Shown one piece after another: positions 8,788-62,431 of a DNA stretch of 64,000 nt; positions within the stretch are counted from its first letter, which is position 1; each line of letters starts with the position of its first letter. The notes under the pieces are model-generated. The model saw only the letters and a list, made by a program, of their open reading frames with translations, searched no databases and was not told where the DNA came from. The position numbers were made by a program, and so were the translations under genes. Source of the stretch: Planctomycetota bacterium (GTDB lineage Bacteria; Planctomycetota; UBA11346); contig JACDEI010000027.1 in assembly GCA_013816485.1 (NCBI GenBank), forward strand, positions 1 through 64,000, read 5' to 3'.

Positions 8788-8958
8788 GCTAGTAGCTGCG
8801 GGCTACTGGCTGCGAGCTACGAGCTACGAGCTACGAGCTACGAGCTACGAGTCCGACTGCCAATTTCTGTAGCACTGGACACCAACGACAAACCCCGGTG
8901 GCAACCACCGGGGTTTGTTGACGAACTCGCAACTCGTAGCTAGCAGCTCATAGCTCGC
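8788..8958. repeat. Inverted heptamer-word element (GAGCTAC) enclosing a perfect 13-bp-stem hairpin
   Basis: Left (GAGCTAC)n 8788-8851, right AACTCGCAACTCGTAGCTAGCAGCTCATAGCTCGCGG 8924-8958; internal hairpin CAAACCCCGGTGG-CAA-CCACCGGGGTTTG 8889-8917. Confidence 0.9.
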
Positions 8959-13248: not shown

Positions 13249-14805
13249 TCAGGGAGCGACGGGCGCCGCTGGTGGTGGAACCTCGACCGCGGGCGCTGCG
13301 CCCGGCGAATCCGGCGGCAATGCCGGTGGCAATGCCGGTGGCAATGCCGGTGGCGATTCCGGTGACGATTCCGGTGACGATTCCGGTGACGATTCCGGTG
13401 ACGATTCCGGTGACGATTCCGGTGACGATTCCGGCGGCAATGCCGGCGGAATCGCCGACGGCAATGACGACGGCAGGCCGGCATCACTGACACGCTGCTC
13501 AATCAGCGCCGGCAGACTGCGGTAGTCGATGACCGACGCCCGGCGCAGATCGTCGAGCACCCGTTTGGTGCGCGGCGCCAGATCGCTGTCGACGATGTCG
13601 GCGACCACCTGGGCCCGGACCTCGGCGAAGACCGGTTCCTTGCCCGCACGCCGGCCATGCACCAGCAAGAGCTCGATGCCCTGATCGGAAATCACCGGCG
13701 ACAACAGCATTGGATACGGCGGCTGGGCCGCGAAGACATCGTCCATGGCCCGTTGAGCCACCTTCCGGGTGCCCTTGATCGGACGGCTGCCGTCACGATT
13801 GACCCAACCGAGCCGGCCACCGGCGTCGGCGTTCTGCTCGAAGGGACGGCCGAATACCTGGAAGTTGCGTTCGAAGCTCACCTGGCGTTTGAAGATCGAT
13901 TGATGGAGCTGGATCATCACGCTCATCAGGCGGTCCTTCTCCGCCTGCGTCACGCGTTCCTTGCCGTCGGGTCCCTTGCTCGTTTGGTACGGGATGTAGA
14001 TCACGCTGAGGTCCGCTGCTGCCTGCACGCGATAACGCTCGATGTGACTGGTGAACCACTCGTTGAGCTTCTCCTCGCTGAGCTCCGCCGCGGCGCGCCG
14101 TTCGACCAGCGAGCGGATGCCGGCACCCATGCGGAAACCTTCCTGACGGACGTACTCGTCGAACGGCACCTTCTGGGTCTGCTCGATGAAGGCGCGGAAG
14201 TCGACGTACGGCTGTTTGCGCGCTTCCAGGCCCTCGTAGTGCCGTTTCTCCATGCGCTTGATCTCCTTGGCGATCAGCGCGTCATCTACCACCACGCCTT
14301 CCTTGGCCAGGGCGTTACGCACCAGGGCGATGCCGATGAGGTCCTCGCGCGCATCACCGGCTTTTTGCTTGAGCAGTTGCGCCGCAACGCTCACCCGGCT
14401 AACGCGCCACGAGTTGGTCTGCACCAGGGTGTCGTGATCGCCGAGTTTTTCCCAATCGGTGCGCTTGAACTCCTCGTCAAGCATGGTCATGAGCTGCTGC
14501 ACCCCCTCCTGTTTGAGCAGCGCGTTCTCGACTTCGCGCAGGGTGATGACGTGGCCATCGACCACCGCGACTGCCAGCGCGCCACCGGCGGGCACCGCGC
14601 TGGATGGTGGCGTAGATAATGGTGACGTGGATGACGCCGGCTTGGCAACCGGTCCCCAGGCGTTGGTCGACGGTCCACCGGGCGCAGTCGCCGTCGACGT
14701 GCTAAACGACGGGCGCAGGCCATAGACCAGCGCCGCGCCGGCCAGCAAACCGATGACCAGGTATTTCACCCGCGTTCCCAGCGGGACCTCGGCGGCATCG
14801 CTCAC
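13249..14805 (-). CDS. SurA/PpiC-type peptidylprolyl isomerase-like protein with repetitive Pro/Ser/Glu C-terminus
   Basis: N-terminal TM, SurA_N-like helices, rotamase-like region; C-term (SPES)n and PPALPPALPP. Confidence 0.75.
   Translation of the reverse strand: MSDAAEVPLGTRVKYLVIGLLAGAALVYGLRPSFSTSTATAPGGPSTNAWGPVAKPASSTSPLSTPPSSAVPAGGALAVAVVDGHVITLREVENALLKQEGVQQLMTMLDEEFKRTDWEKLGDHDTLVQTNSWRVSRVSVAAQLLKQKAGDAREDLIGIALVRNALAKEGVVVDDALIAKEIKRMEKRHYEGLEARKQPYVDFRAFIEQTQKVPFDEYVRQEGFRMGAGIRSLVERRAAAELSEEKLNEWFTSHIERYRVQAAADLSVIYIPYQTSKGPDGKERVTQAEKDRLMSVMIQLHQSIFKRQVSFERNFQVFGRPFEQNADAGGRLGWVNRDGSRPIKGTRKVAQRAMDDVFAAQPPYPMLLSPVISDQGIELLLVHGRRAGKEPVFAEVRAQVVADIVDSDLAPRTKRVLDDLRRASVIDYRSLPALIEQRVSDAGLPSSLPSAIPPALPPESSPESSPESSPESSPESSPESSPESPPALPPALPPALPPDSPGAAPAVEVPPPAAPVAP
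13309..13455. repeat. In-frame 12-bp tandem repeats CCGGTGACGATT/CCGGTGGCAATG
   Basis: Six CCGGTGACGATT units flanked by CCGG(T/C)GGCAATG units. Confidence 0.95.
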
Positions 14806-29026: not shown

Positions 29027-29695
29027 TTACGACCGTCCGGAAGTCCGGAAGTCCGGAAGTCCGGCAGGAGGCAATCCCTGCTTCGCACAGAACCGCGCCA
29101 CCGGGCAGCGCTCGCAGCGTGGCTTCTGCCGCCGGCAGCAATCGCGACCCAGACGGATCAACTGATGGCAGAGGCGCACCCAGTACTCCGGCGCAAAACG
29201 CCGCACCAACGCGACCTCGGCATCGGCAGGATGTTCGCGCGCAGCCCAGCCCATGCGGTAGGCGATGCGCTGGACGTGCACGTCGGCGGCGATGGCCGGC
29301 TGGCCGAAGGCATTGCCGAGTACCACCGCGGCGGTCTTACGCCCGACGCCAGGTAAAGCCGACAGTGAAACGAGGTCGCGCGGCACCAAGCCGTCATGCA
29401 AGCGTAGAACGGAACGCGCCGCCTCGACGATGGCGCGTGCCTTCTGACGGTGCAGCGGCACATGGCGGATGACCCGATCAAGTTCGCGGTGGTCGAGGTC
29501 GGCGAGCGCCTGCGGGCCGACGTAGTGTTCGTTCAGCACTGCCATGACCTTGTTGACCTGCACGTCGGTGGTGCGGGCCGAGAGGATCGCCGCCACCAGC
29601 AGCTCCCACGCATCACGCGCCAACAGTTCACAACGCGCATCCGGGTAGGCGTCCTGCAACGCGTGACCGATGCCGGTATCGGCGAGGTCGTCCAT
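29027..29695 (-). CDS. nth: Endonuclease III
   Basis: HhH LPGVGRKTAAVVLG; 4Fe-4S CCRRQKPRCERCPVARFC; C-term PDFRTSGRS encoded by the tandem repeat. Confidence 0.94.
   Translation of the reverse strand: MDDLADTGIGHALQDAYPDARCELLARDAWELLVAAILSARTTDVQVNKVMAVLNEHYVGPQALADLDHRELDRVIRHVPLHRQKARAIVEAARSVLRLHDGLVPRDLVSLSALPGVGRKTAAVVLGNAFGQPAIAADVHVQRIAYRMGWAAREHPADAEVALVRRFAPEYWVRLCHQLIRLGRDCCRRQKPRCERCPVARFCAKQGLPPAGLPDFRTSGRS
29035..29064. repeat. 9-bp tandem repeat (GGAAGTCCG)n inside the nth 3' end
   Basis: GTCCGGAAGTCCGGAAGTCCGGAAGTCCGG. Confidence 0.95.
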
Positions 29696-42220: not shown

Positions 42221-43350
42221 TCGTCCTCGACCACCACGGGTTCTTCGCCCGGTGCCAGCACCGGCGGTCGCCGCAGGCGCAGGCAGATGGTGTCGCCCAG
42301 GACCAGTGGACGGTCCTCGTGTTGCCAATGGCGGGCATCGTTCATCAGTTCGGCACCGATGCCGGCGGCCACGCCGATGCCGCCGCCGACGGTCTGCGCC
42401 CCGACATAGAGTTCGAGCCGGTCATAGAGCCCGGCGCGCAGGTAGGCGCCGTGGATCTGCGCCCCACCTTCAACTAGGACCTCATTGAGGCCGTAACGAC
42501 CGAGCGCGGCCGCCACCGCGACGGGATCATGGGGTTTGGCCACTTCCCACAGATCGATGCCATGGCTGGCAAGTGCCGCACGGTTGCCGGCGGGGGCCTC
42601 CGGCCCGTGGATCATCAACACCGCCGCCTTGGCCCGTGTCGCCACCAGCATGGAGTTCTCGCGCAGTTCGGCGTTCCGGCTGATGACCACCCGCACCGGC
42701 GTGCGCTCACCGACCAGCGACGACAACAAACTGGGATCATCGTGATACGCGGTACCGGCCCCGACCATGATCGCATCGAACACCCGGCGGCGACGGCGGC
42801 TGAAATTCAGCGCCGCGGTGCTGGAGATCCAGGTGCTGTCGCCGGTGTGGGTGGCGATGCAGCCGTCGAGCGTCATCGCCCATTTGCCGGTCAGACGCGG
42901 ACGCCCCAGCCCGACGCGACTGAGGAAGCCGCCGTGGATCTGCGCCGCAGCGAGTGCGAGGCAACCTTCGTCGTAGGTAATGCTGGCCTCGGCCAATGGA
43001 ATCGCCGGATCGTCCTGATTGGGATCGCTGACTGCCGCCACCACACGCGCGATGCCGGCGGCGATCAGCGCAGTGGTGCACGGTGGCTGTTTGCCATGCC
43101 GGGTGCACGGCGCGAGCGTGACATAGGCGGTGGCACCGGCCGTATCGTTTCCGAGCGCTTGGCACTGACTGAGCGCGTTGACTTCCGCATGCGCCTGACC
43201 GAACACCGCGTGACGGCCTTCGCCGAGCAACCGTCCATCACGGACGATGACGCAACCGACACCTGGATTCGGCCAGGTACGGCCAAGACTAAGCGTCGCC
43301 AAGCGCAAGGCGCGACGCATCCAGCGGATGTCCTGCGAGGGATCAGTCAT
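42217..43350 (-). CDS. ribD: Bifunctional diaminohydroxyphosphoribosylaminopyrimidine deaminase / reductase
   Basis: PNPGVGCVIV, HAEVNAL, ATAYVTLAPCTRHGKQPPC; C-term reductase domain. Confidence 0.93.
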   Translation of the reverse strand: MTDPSQDIRWMRRALRLATLSLGRTWPNPGVGCVIVRDGRLLGEGRHAVFGQAHAEVNALSQCQALGNDTAGATAYVTLAPCTRHGKQPPCTTALIAAGIARVVAAVSDPNQDDPAIPLAEASITYDEGCLALAAAQIHGGFLSRVGLGRPRLTGKWAMTLDGCIATHTGDSTWISSTAALNFSRRRRRVFDAIMVGAGTAYHDDPSLLSSLVGERTPVRVVISRNAELRENSMLVATRAKAAVLMIHGPEAPAGNRAALASHGIDLWEVAKPHDPVAVAAALGRYGLNEVLVEGGAQIHGAYLRAGLYDRLELYVGAQTVGGGIGVAAGIGAELMNDARHWQHEDRPLVLGDTICLRLRRPPVLAPGEEPVVVEDD

Positions 43351-43354
43351 CGAT

Positions 43355-43472
43355 TTGGTCCGATGTCCGATGTCCGATGTCCGATGTCTGATGCAGGCGC
43401 CCGGCGATGTCCCTGCGATAACCATCGTTCACGCGGGACATCGGACATCGGACGTCGGACATCGGACCAACC
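43355..43472. repeat. TGTCCGA heptamer-word inverted element filling the ribD-nusB gap
   Basis: TTGGTCCGATGTCCGATGTCCGATGTCCGATGTCTGATG vs rc of GGGACATCGGACATCGGACGTCGGACATCGGACCAACC. Confidence 0.95.
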
Positions 43473-43994
43473 TCAGTCTTTTTTCGCCGGACTCCGCACA
43501 TCGCCGGCCCGATGCTCGCGTGCGATCTTGTCGAGCACCGCATTGACCAACTTCGGCGTCTTGGCTTCGCTGCCATACCGTTTTGACAGTTCGATGTACT
43601 CGTTGATCGCAACTTTCGCGGGCGTGTCGGCGCAGTAGAGGATCTCGTAGGCGCCCAAGCGCAGGATCGCGCGGTCAGCTACCGCCAAGCGATGGATGGT
43701 CCAGTTCTCCAGACGCTTGTCGACCGCCGCATCGATCGACAGGCGTTCCTTGGCGAACCCGGCCTGAAGCGCCTGCGCGAACGCGACACTCTCCGGCTCC
43801 ATGCCGTCCGTCGCGTCCGCCGGCAGCAGCATGCCGTCGTCGATGAACTTGTTCTGTTCGAAGCTGTAGAGCAGTTGCAGGGCCAGTTCACGTCCGCGAC
43901 TACGCAAATCGCTGCGTTTGGCCCCGGATCTGGCTCGGTCTTTGGCCGCCGTATTGTCGGACGCGCTCTGGTCGGAAATCACCTTCTCCGACAT
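43473..43994 (-). CDS. nusB: Transcription antitermination factor NusB
   Basis: SRGRELALQLLYSFEQNKF; ADRAILRLGAYEILYCADTPAKVAINEYIELSKRYGSEAKTPKLVNAVLD. Confidence 0.94.
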   Translation of the reverse strand: MSEKVISDQSASDNTAAKDRARSGAKRSDLRSRGRELALQLLYSFEQNKFIDDGMLLPADATDGMEPESVAFAQALQAGFAKERLSIDAAVDKRLENWTIHRLAVADRAILRLGAYEILYCADTPAKVAINEYIELSKRYGSEAKTPKLVNAVLDKIAREHRAGDVRSPAKKD

Positions 43995-44464
43995 CAGAGC
44001 CGTCCCAGCAGATCAACCATCTCAATCGCTGCGAGCGCCGCATCGACGCCCTTGTTACCGGCCTTGAGCCCGGCGCGCGCCTGCGCCTGCTCGGTGGTGT
44101 CGGTGGTCAGCACGCCGAACGACACCGGCACGCCGCTGGTCGCCTGCGCGGCAGCGAGGCCCTTGGCACATTCACCAGCGACGAAGTCGAAGTGCGGGGT
44201 CTCACCACGGATGACGCAGCCGAGCGCGATGATGGCGTCAGGCTTCTTCTTGCCGTTGTCGATCACCTGACGCACCACCAGCGGAAGTTCCCAGGCACCT
44301 GGGCAACGCACGACCAGGATGTCCTGGTCGCGCACGCCATTGCGGATCAGGGCATCGACCGCACCGGAGATCAGGCTCTCGACAATCGCGCCGTTGAAGC
44401 GCGCGGCGACGATGGCGAACTTCTTGCCGGTGCCGGTGAGGTGACCATCGATGGAGGTAGGCAT
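43994..44464 (-). CDS. ribH: 6,7-dimethyl-8-ribityllumazine synthase
   Basis: [60 protein letters not shown]. Confidence 0.96.
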
Positions 44465-44533
44465 GGGTTCTTCCGCAAACGGTGGGTGGCGCAGCCTATG
44501 GCTGATTCTGGCGGGGCCAGGGGCGAACGACTT

Positions 44534-44919
44534 CAGGTCCGAGGGGTCCGAGGGGTACGAAGGGTACGAAGGGTACGAAGGGTACGAAGGGTACGAAGGG
44601 TACGAAGGGTACGAAGGGTACGAAGGGTACGAAGGGTACGAGGGGTACGAGGGGTACGAATGGTCCAGGCTTCCGGACCCCTCGTACCCCTCGTACTTCT
44701 CGTACTCTTCGGACCAGGACGTCAGGCCGTCGCCGTGGTACGAAGGGTACGAAGGGTACGAGGGGTACGAGGGGTACGAGGGGTACGAATGGTCCAGGCT
44801 TCCGGACCCCTCGTACCCTTCGTACTTCTCGTACTCTTCGGACCAGGACGTCAGGCCGTCGCCGTGGTACGAAAGGTACGAAGGGTCCGAAGGGTCAAGA
44901 CTTCCGGACCCGTCGGACC
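44534..44919. repeat. Large GGGGTACGA/GGGTACGAA 9-bp tandem array with inverted arms, duplicated as 129-bp higher-order units
   Basis: 12 consecutive TACGA units (plus 2 TCCGA) then TGGTCCAGGCTTCCGGACCCCTCGTACCCC...; second copy of the TGGTCCAGGC core 129 bp downstream (44661 and 44790). Confidence 0.97.
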
Positions 44920-44926
44920 GCGCCGA

Positions 44927-46588
44927 TCAGGCGCTCGCCGTGCGATAATCCAACCGGCCCATCTGGAATGCCACGCGGTTGACCGCGTCCAGGTAGGCCA
45001 AGGCGCTGGCGTGCACGATGTCGGTCGAGAGGCCTTTGCCGCCGACCACAGTGCCTTCGCCGCTGGTATCACCGACGGCTTTCAGGCGCACGCGGATGGA
45101 GACCTCACCCTGGGCATCGCCGCCCTTGGTCACCGCGCGCAGGCGGTAGTCCTCGACCGTGCCGGTGTACCCACAGATGCGGTTGACCGCTTGGACCACC
45201 GCGTCGACCGGACCGTCGCCAGTGGCCGCATCGGTGACCAGATGTTCGCCCTTACGGATGCGCACGGTAGCTGTGGCCATCGCGCCGCTGCCGGCACCTT
45301 CGCCAGAGGCCGACGCGGTGTGCAGGTAGTCCAACACCCACGCGTCGACGATGCGACCACGCACGACCTCTTCGACCAACGCAATCAGGTCGCCGTCGTA
45401 GATTTCTTTTTTCTTATCGGCCAGGGTTTTGAAGGCGTCGAACAACTTGCCCATGTCGGCGTCGGTGACCGCCAGGCCCAAACCTTCCAGGCGCTTCGAC
45501 AACGCCGCGCGACCCGAGTGTTTGCCCAGCACCAGGTTGGTGGTCGGCACGCCGACCGAGGCCGGCGTCATGATCTCGTAACACTCGGGGTTCTTCAGCA
45601 TGCCGTGCTGATGGATGCCGCTCTCGTGGGCGAAGGCGTTGTCGCCGACCACCGCTTTATTGCGCTGCACCATCAAGCCGGTGATCGACTGAACCAGGCG
45701 GCTGGCACCGTACAGGTGTGACGACTCGATGCCGGTGACGATGTTTTTGAACATGTCCTTGCGCACGCGCATGGCCATGACCACCTCTTCCAACGAGCAG
45801 TTGCCGGCGCGTTCGCCGATGCCGTTGATGGTGCATTCCACCTGACGCGCACCAGCGCGCACGGCAGCCAGCGAGTTCGCCACCGCCAAACCCAGGTCGT
45901 TGTGGCAGTGCACGCTGATGACCGCCTGATCGATGTTCTTCACGTTCGCGCGCAGGTAGGTGATCAAATCGGCGTAGTCATTCGGATACGCGTAGCCGAC
46001 GGTGTCGGGAATGTTCACCGTGCGCGCGCCGGCTTCGATGACGGCCTGTACGACTTCGGCCAGGAACTCTGGCTCGGTGCGCGACGCGTCCTCGGGGCTG
46101 AACTCGATGTCGTCGATCAGGGTCTTGGCGTAGGCCACCGCTTCGCGCGCCTGTTTGAGGATTTCCTCCTTCACCTTGTTCAGTTTGAACTGCCGGTGGA
46201 TGGCGCTGGTGGCCAGGAAGATGTGCACACGTGCGCGACTGCCGGCGGGTTTCACCGCTTCGGCGGCGCGATCAATGTCACCCTTCAGCGCCCGGGCCAG
46301 GCCACAGATGCGTGCGCGCGTCGACTGTTCGGCGACGGCCTTCACTGCGGCGAAGTCGTCGGGCGAGGCGATGGGAAAACCGGCTTCGATGATGTCGACG
46401 CCCAGCGCTTCCAGCGTGCGGGCGACTTCCAGCTTCTCGGCCAGGTTCATCGACGCCCCAGGCGATTGCTCGCCGTCACGCAAGGTGGTGTCGAAGATCA
46501 GCACGCGTTCGGTGCCGGCGGGAGTGGTCATCTGGGAAGCGGAGCCGGCACGAGGTTCGGCAACGCGAGTGGTATCTGAAGGATTCAT
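44927..46588 (-). CDS. leuA: 2-isopropylmalate synthase
   Basis: [36 protein letters not shown]-terminal LeuA allosteric domain; start MNPSDTT. Confidence 0.96.
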
Positions 46589-46653
46589 CGGGTAGGTCCT
46601 GCCACGGCCATCGGCCATGTGCTTGCTGAATGGTTTGATTGAGAGGGCATCTG

Positions 46654-46731
46654 GTGGGGCGGGCAACAAGCCCGTCTCCCCACTGTAGTGCTCCACAAAA
46701 GTGCTCCACAAAAGTGCTCCACAAAGTGGAG
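46654..46731 (-). promoter_or_regulatory. leuA upstream region: hairpin plus three 13-bp direct repeats (candidate leader/operator)
   Basis: GTGGGG..CGGGC/GCCCG..CCCCAC hairpin 46654-46683; (GTGCTCCACAAAA)x3 46688-46726 ending in GCTCCACAAAGTGGAGC palindrome. Confidence 0.6.
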
Positions 46732-48641: not shown

Positions 48642-48701
48642 CTACGAGCTGCGAGTCTCGAAGCTCGAAGCTCGAAGCTCGAAGCTCGTAGCTCAAAGCT
48701 A
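48639..48701. repeat. 63-bp palindromic (TCGAAGC) word element carrying both flanking stop codons
   Basis: TAGCTACGAGCTGCGAGTC(TCGAAGC)nTCGTAGCTCAAAGCTA. Confidence 0.92.
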
Positions 48702-56184: not shown

Positions 56185-56299
56185 CGGACCGTCCGAAGGG
56201 TACGAGGGGTACGAGGGGTACGAGGGGTACGAATGGTCCAGGAAAATCACGGTCGCCGTAACGGACCCTTCGTACCCCTCGTACCTTTCGGACCCTTCC
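56185..56299. repeat. GGGGTACGA 9-bp inverted element between rbsB-like and rbsA-like genes
   Basis: CGGACCGTCCGAAGGGTACGAGGGGTACGAGGGGTACGAGGGGTACGAATGGTCC opposed by ACGGACCCTTCGTACCCCTCGTACCTTTCGGACCC. Confidence 0.96.
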
Positions 56300-59538: not shown

Positions 59539-59625
59539 ATTGAACAAGAGAAACGGAGGAACGGAGGAGCAGGCATGAGAAACGGTCCCCTGTCTTCCTC
59601 CGTTCCTCCGTTCCTCCTGTTCAAT
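59539..59625. repeat. GGAACGGA octamer-word inverted element
   Basis: ATTGAACAAGAGAAACGGAGGAACGGAGGA 59539-59568 vs rc of CCTCCGTTCCTCCGTTCCTCCTGTTCAAT 59597-59625. Confidence 0.95.
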
Positions 59626-62274: not shown

Positions 62275-62393
62275 TGGGTACGAAAGGTACGAGGGGTACG
62301 AGGGGTACGAACGGTCCAAAGATAGTCGTACCCTTCGTACCCCTCGTACCCCTCGTACCCCTCGTACCCCTCGTACCTTTCGTACCTTTCGGA
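62275..62393. repeat. GGGGTACGA 9-bp inverted element in the divergent XPB/lysA gap
   Basis: TGGGTACGAAAGGTACGAGGGGTACGAGGGGTACGAACGGTCC vs TCGTACCCTTCGTACCCC(TCGTACCCC)nTCGTACCTTTCGTACCTTTCGGA. Confidence 0.97.
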
Positions 62394-62431
62394 CTTGTCC
62401 CCTCCCCCGCACCCCCACGCTCCCGCGCTCC

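Follow-up and report, generated by a model that had tools for sequence, protein, structure and literature searches.

The element between leuA and ribH

The window, i.e., the whole 64-kb stretch of DNA that was analysed, belongs to a 5.2-Mb planctomycete MAG of 101 contigs that is 87% complete. In it, leuA is followed by ribH and then by nusB and ribD. The gap between the first two, bounded by ribH at 44464 and by leuA from 44927, holds a repetitive element at 44534–44919, which takes up 386 of its 462 bp (84%); the original prediction, that the element fills most of this gap, is thus correct. The features of the locus are the following.

44927–46696, minus strand: leuA, 2-isopropylmalate synthase (NF002086/TIGR00973 above cut-off), upstream of the element in transcription
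43994–44464, minus strand: ribH, lumazine synthase (TIGR00114 above cut-off), downstream of the element in transcription
44536–44661, plus strand: purine-rich (5') arm of 14 tandem 9-bp units, the first two GGTCCGARG and the other 12 GGTACGARG
44662–44679: loop or core GGTCCAGGCTTCCGGACC, closed by GGTCC..GGACC
44674–44715, minus strand: pyrimidine-rich (3') arm of inverted units with the final letters TTCGGACC, based on the repeat finder and the fold
44608–44736: 129-bp higher-order unit, copy 1 (arm, loop, arm and the spacer AGGACGTCAGGCCGTCGCCGTGG)
44737–44865: 129-bp higher-order unit, copy 2, with 98% identity to copy 1
44866–44919: third hairpin, short and diverged, with a compact stem at 44884–44919 (-26.5 kcal/mol with flanks)

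The twelve consecutive 9-bp units that had been noted are found at 44554–44661 by direct inspection of the sequence, by repeat finders and by TRF; they are of the GTACGA type and are preceded by two GTCCGA units, at 44536 and 44545. The same three sources place the end of the core TGGTCCAGGCTTCCGGACC at 44679, from which inverted units continue up to 44715, and the recurrence of the whole hairpin at a distance of 129 bp, also noted before, is borne out by the two copies listed above. Regarding folding, which had been proposed as a check, the RNA of 44617–44715 forms a very stable stem, with an energy of -71.5 kcal/mol compared to -32.8 +- 3.4 for shuffled sequences. The compact hairpin 44884–44919, GGTCCGAAGGGTCAAGACTTCCGGACCCGTCGGACC, which had not been noted before, is separated by 7 nt from the stop codon of leuA, which it follows on the leuA (minus-strand) transcript. 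A search of the element against Rfam gave nothing above the gathering score, only sub-threshold matches, mostly microRNA precursors, that occur because of the long stem.

The ribH–leuA element is a non-coding, lineage-specific intergenic hairpin repeat of the form (GGTMCGARG)n, a locus-specific loop, and the complementary (CYTCGKACC)n. A repetitive protein-coding ORF (EGYEGYEGY..., 44451–44948 on the plus strand) was also considered, as the 9-bp units keep all frames open, the ORF reaches 165 codons, and it has a weak match to Collagen. This match, however, is below the cut-off, and the ORF would run antisense over the start of ribH and the end of leuA. Moreover, 15 of the 42 elements of this type discussed below have all six reading frames open, which simply follows from the unit length, and their relatives built on 7- and 8-bp units could not encode repeats of this sort. 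Given this six-frame openness and a match that is only sub-threshold, the coding reading was rejected, its probability being close to nil.

A genome-wide family of 9-bp hairpins

The original prediction treated the element as a local feature; in fact, the element belongs to a family spread over the genome, and this family is one of several. The array pattern GTACGARRGGTACGARRGGTACGA has 344 matches in the genome, compared to none for the reversed-pattern control. At least 42 elements of the 9-bp family are present in the stretches of this genome that were read, 426 kb in all and the source of the element statistics; every stretch except the window was picked for holding elements, so that densities derived from them are biased upward. 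Two other members lie within the window.

56185–56293: 9-bp family member, filling a 118-bp gap between ABC-transporter genes
62277–62394: 9-bp family member, between lysA and a helicase gene, which are divergent

Described beforehand as the largest element, the leuA–ribH repeat is so in the 64-kb window but not in the genome, where five whole-hairpin copies (locus L157, C45:119788–120327) extend over 540 bp. Expansion does proceed at both levels that had been recognised, since arms are strongly unequal and whole hairpins are duplicated at four of about 42 loci, namely the window, L149, L157 and L169.

All assessable 9-bp elements have the same order, i.e., a purine-rich array, a loop, and a pyrimidine-rich array, while two elements with the second arm only sit at contig starts. 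The hairpins of this family are stable when folded on both strands, with a median z of about -11. Their loops have a median length of 31 nt and, beyond the closing GGTCC/GGACC, share no sequence between different loci; for seven longer loops no copy was found elsewhere in the genome. The possibility that loops are captured gene fragments was rejected, as none of these seven occurs elsewhere in the genome, and the uniqueness of the loops also makes a simple copy-and-paste mechanism awkward.

As for the arms, their likeness is slightly higher within than between elements (p=0.006), and the unit counts of the two arms are uncorrelated (rho -0.16), which indicates that pairing is not tightly maintained. 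The GTCCGA variant accounts for 51% of the terminal units versus 14% of the units inside the arms, and from this pattern the arrays look as if they were growing between fixed GGTCC ends. In two elements (L152 6556–6709 and L166 3889–4072) the tandem unit has incorporated flanking sequence, GCGCGCTGCGCGCTG and TCGCTTCGCTG, respectively; these flank-derived units are a possible record of how units grow.

Sister families with other words

The same genome contains families with the same anatomy built on other words, two of which are represented in the window.

43357–43469: 7-bp sister family, unit GTCCGAT, between nusB and ribD
59541–59625: 8-bp sister family, unit GGAACGGA

The GTCCGAT family has 206 matches in the genome and occurs also in one species of the same genus, G002, and not in another, G001; the hairpin at 43357–43469 is absent from the matching gaps of both. 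This repeat translates into spurious SDVRCPMSDVRC-type peptides. Another short-word family is seen in the 7-bp AGCTCGA/AGCTACG arrays at 48657–48700 and 8794–8851 of the window, the former in a gap between two convergent genes that in G002 contains a short hairpin of GTCCGGA type. In addition, 8-bp GTCCGGAA arrays occur at 29035–29064 of the window and, in a more distant planctomycete, after leuA (L032 2882–2916). A 7-bp GTGCGGA hairpin repeat (L159 7266–7413) is built on a word with more than 100 matches in a third species of the genus, G003, so that this word is shared across species. Longer tandem repeats of 12–24 bp, at 36–300 (G-rich) and 13304–13475 of the window, are unrelated to the hairpin families.

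Position relative to genes

Genes were called with a home-made codon-based caller, hence approximately, and 87% of the sampled DNA is coding. Even so, no 9-bp element lies truly inside a gene in the sampled stretches, and two apparently intragenic ones correspond to ORF calls that were over-extended 5' through the always-open repeat. In tandem gaps, a stop codon is found no more than 35 nt away from each element of the 9-bp and 7-bp families, and elements lie closer to the gene on the stop side (median 10) than to the one on the start side (median 17; p=0.0008); many copies end 6–20 nt ahead of a start codon. The orientation of the host gaps matches the background (chi-square p=0.22), with no general preference for gene 3' ends, and the depletion between divergent genes expected of terminators was not seen among the sampled elements. 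For these two reasons termination cannot be the general role of the family.

Distribution among related genomes

Among the 297 genomes of the phylum that were searched, the 9-bp word was found in one, namely the source genome, and in none of the 40 relatives. The genomes compared within the genus are all draft MAGs. In the 322 kb sampled from G001, neither the 9-bp nor the GTCCGAT family occurs. Two sites that hold elements in the source genome are 2-bp gaps in G002. In G003, two gaps with 9-bp elements in the source genome contain GTGCGGA 7-bp hairpins, and a third gap matching a source-genome element contains a GGAGGCGC hairpin; the remaining gaps compared in the sister species are plain. 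Finding different words in the same gap may in part be a consequence of the number of occupied gaps in G000 and G003. Empty sites in the sister species do exist, with flanks too diverged to resolve junctions or a target-site duplication. With the repeat absent, different or plain in all three relatives of the genus, the earlier description of the element as dynamic stands as a statement about differences between species. A viral origin was also considered and rejected, as the one match in 2.9 million viral contigs is in an A+T-rich unrelated contig and has the reversed layout.

In the leuA–ribH gap itself, G001 and G010 have simple GC stems, G015 has a textbook terminator (a stem plus a T-run), and G002 has a long expanded hairpin of GTCCGATCGCCTTCGGCTT units. 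That relatives keep a hairpin at this place suggests, from sequence comparison, that the repeat was probably grafted onto the leuA 3'-end hairpin or developed out of it. In G003, GGCTGAC/GACTGCT 7-bp arrays are present in the gap upstream of ribH, there beside a different gene (L115 1215–1396).

The leuA–ribH hairpin resembles an intrinsic terminator in its GC-rich stem, placed a few nt past the stop codon of leuA, and in the simple stems that relatives have in this gap. It differs in its stems of about 40 pairs, in its multiple hairpins, in belonging to a family found also in divergent gaps, and in the U-tract: no U-tract or terminator-like site was found within 43300–45300. Therefore, it is not a canonical intrinsic terminator, and any termination would be non-canonical or Rho-assisted; protection or processing of the 3' end appears as likely a role as termination.

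A different explanation, possible but considerably less probable than the one developed in the last section, is that these repeats are neutral or selfish oligomer satellites, which expand where non-coding DNA tolerates them and whose position near stops reflects the avoidance of coding and promoter sequence. It would account for host gaps oriented like the background, for unequal and uncorrelated arms, for the fast turnover between sister species, and for a congener, G001, that does well without elements. Taken alone, however, it leaves unexplained why nearly all elements are inverted pairs in one fixed order, and why a hairpin is kept between leuA and ribH across relatives.

Comparison with known repeats

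To our knowledge, arrays of short words between genes are widespread in bacteria, without a consensus on how they arose or what they do. The cyanobacterial STRR are intergenic heptanucleotide arrays whose words are restricted to certain lineages and which are mostly direct, without an inverted partner. The TAACTGA repeats of Beggiatoaceae form intergenic arrays immediately ahead of start codons and in a single orientation (PMC4679880). The planctomycete elements share with both the intergenic tandem arrays of short, lineage-limited words and, unlike these mostly direct arrays, have an inverted partner.

The closest precedent is found in the inverted GGGAATC arrays of Xanthomonas. The GGGAATC / GGGGA(C/T)T heptamer arrays of Xanthomonas and Nostoc occur at about 180 intergenic sites per genome (Rehm et al. 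2015, PMC4692102), mostly between aligned genes, near stops on the sense strand and near starts on the antisense strand. In Xanthomonas, 70–75 sites per genome are convergent inverted pairs capable of forming stem-loops (70 pairs in Xcc), the lengths at matching sites differ between sister species, and transcript starts and ends are commoner at quadruplex-capable copies, although the authors found no function (PMC4692102). The similarities include a short G-rich tandem unit at many intergenic sites (at least 42 here), convergent inverted pairs, with the G-rich arm first in all elements assessable here, and the location near stop codons. The differences are that divergent gaps are not depleted here, that the unit is 9 bp (7–8 bp in the other families) rather than the heptamer GGGNATC, that nearly every element is an inverted pair, that one genome has several unrelated words, some without G-runs, and that a word is replaced by another in the same gap between species. 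Given also the patchy quadruplex motif (29 of 42 elements, and 0 of 17 in the sister family), the 9-bp repeat is a variant, not a member, of the Xanthomonas class.

The same motif, G3-N1-7, bears on the idea that (GGGTACGAA)n of the purine-rich strand adopts a G-quadruplex at which polymerase pauses. The same was proposed for GGGAATC, for which CD spectra and transcript ends offer a direct precedent (PMC4692102). The complete absence of the motif from the sampled elements of the 7-bp family, which have the same anatomy and position, and the great stability of the competing duplex hairpin make the quadruplex idea very improbable. Six-base loops, moreover, make weak quadruplexes.

Like REPINs (PMC3116915) and BIMEs, the elements are dispersed extragenic inverted pairs with a variable spacer and a stable hairpin, occasionally forming tandem clusters of whole hairpins with their flanks. 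These similarities raise the prospect of REPIN- or MITE-like hairpins moved by a genome-encoded Y1 (HUH) transposase of the IS200/RAYT superfamily, and the ten PF01797 genes of this genome, versus 0, 1 and 2 in the relatives of the same genus, roughly track repeat richness. Yet the loci read around the ten Y1 genes contain no 9-bp element, and hence no RAYT was found beside one; G007 and G011 lack 9-bp words in spite of 5 and 13 Y1 matches, respectively; the arms consist of a variable number of tandem 9-bp units instead of one conserved REP; and, with loops that differ between loci and are absent elsewhere, there is no conserved internal sequence as in a MITE. Mobilisation by Y1/RAYT was rejected for lack of adjacency and for a distribution that is only loosely parallel, and we regard it as improbable.

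Possible origin and role

The explanation that we favour, and consider somewhat more probable than its alternatives combined, is that of a REPIN-like hairpin family that spreads to gene borders, grows in place, and is transcribed here as a stable leuA 3' hairpin. The family would spread as a hairpin, either in a REPIN-like manner or through arrays recombining into existing gene-end hairpins, and elements would then lengthen through slippage inside the arms and through entire hairpins being duplicated in tandem. Between leuA and ribH, the starting point would have been the compact stem at 44884–44919. The leuA transcript would end in, or be processed at, the very stable stem, which would protect the transcript at the 3' end and might also reduce read-through into ribH. 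For most of the other copies, the tolerance of intergenic DNA may be a sufficient explanation. A 2026 survey reports that inverted repeats are enriched immediately downstream of stop codons across all bacterial phyla (PMC13155455).

A more speculative and rather doubtful extension is that the genus keeps "hairpin slots" at gene borders, where an array-spreading process, independent of any adjacent transposase, replaces the stem sequence with a new 7–9-bp word particular to the species; the order of purines, then pyrimidines, would mark either this process or a shared function at the RNA level.

These repeats carry a warning for annotation, since the long ORFs that they make (EGYEGY..., SDVRCP...) are not genes. 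Beyond this, the genus offers a natural experiment in four related genomes, of which G001 is nearly repeat-free whereas the others are rich in repeats with different words. With the same gaps empty, plain or filled across the genus, both the route by which the repeats spread and the question of whether they function as 3' hairpins become directly testable.
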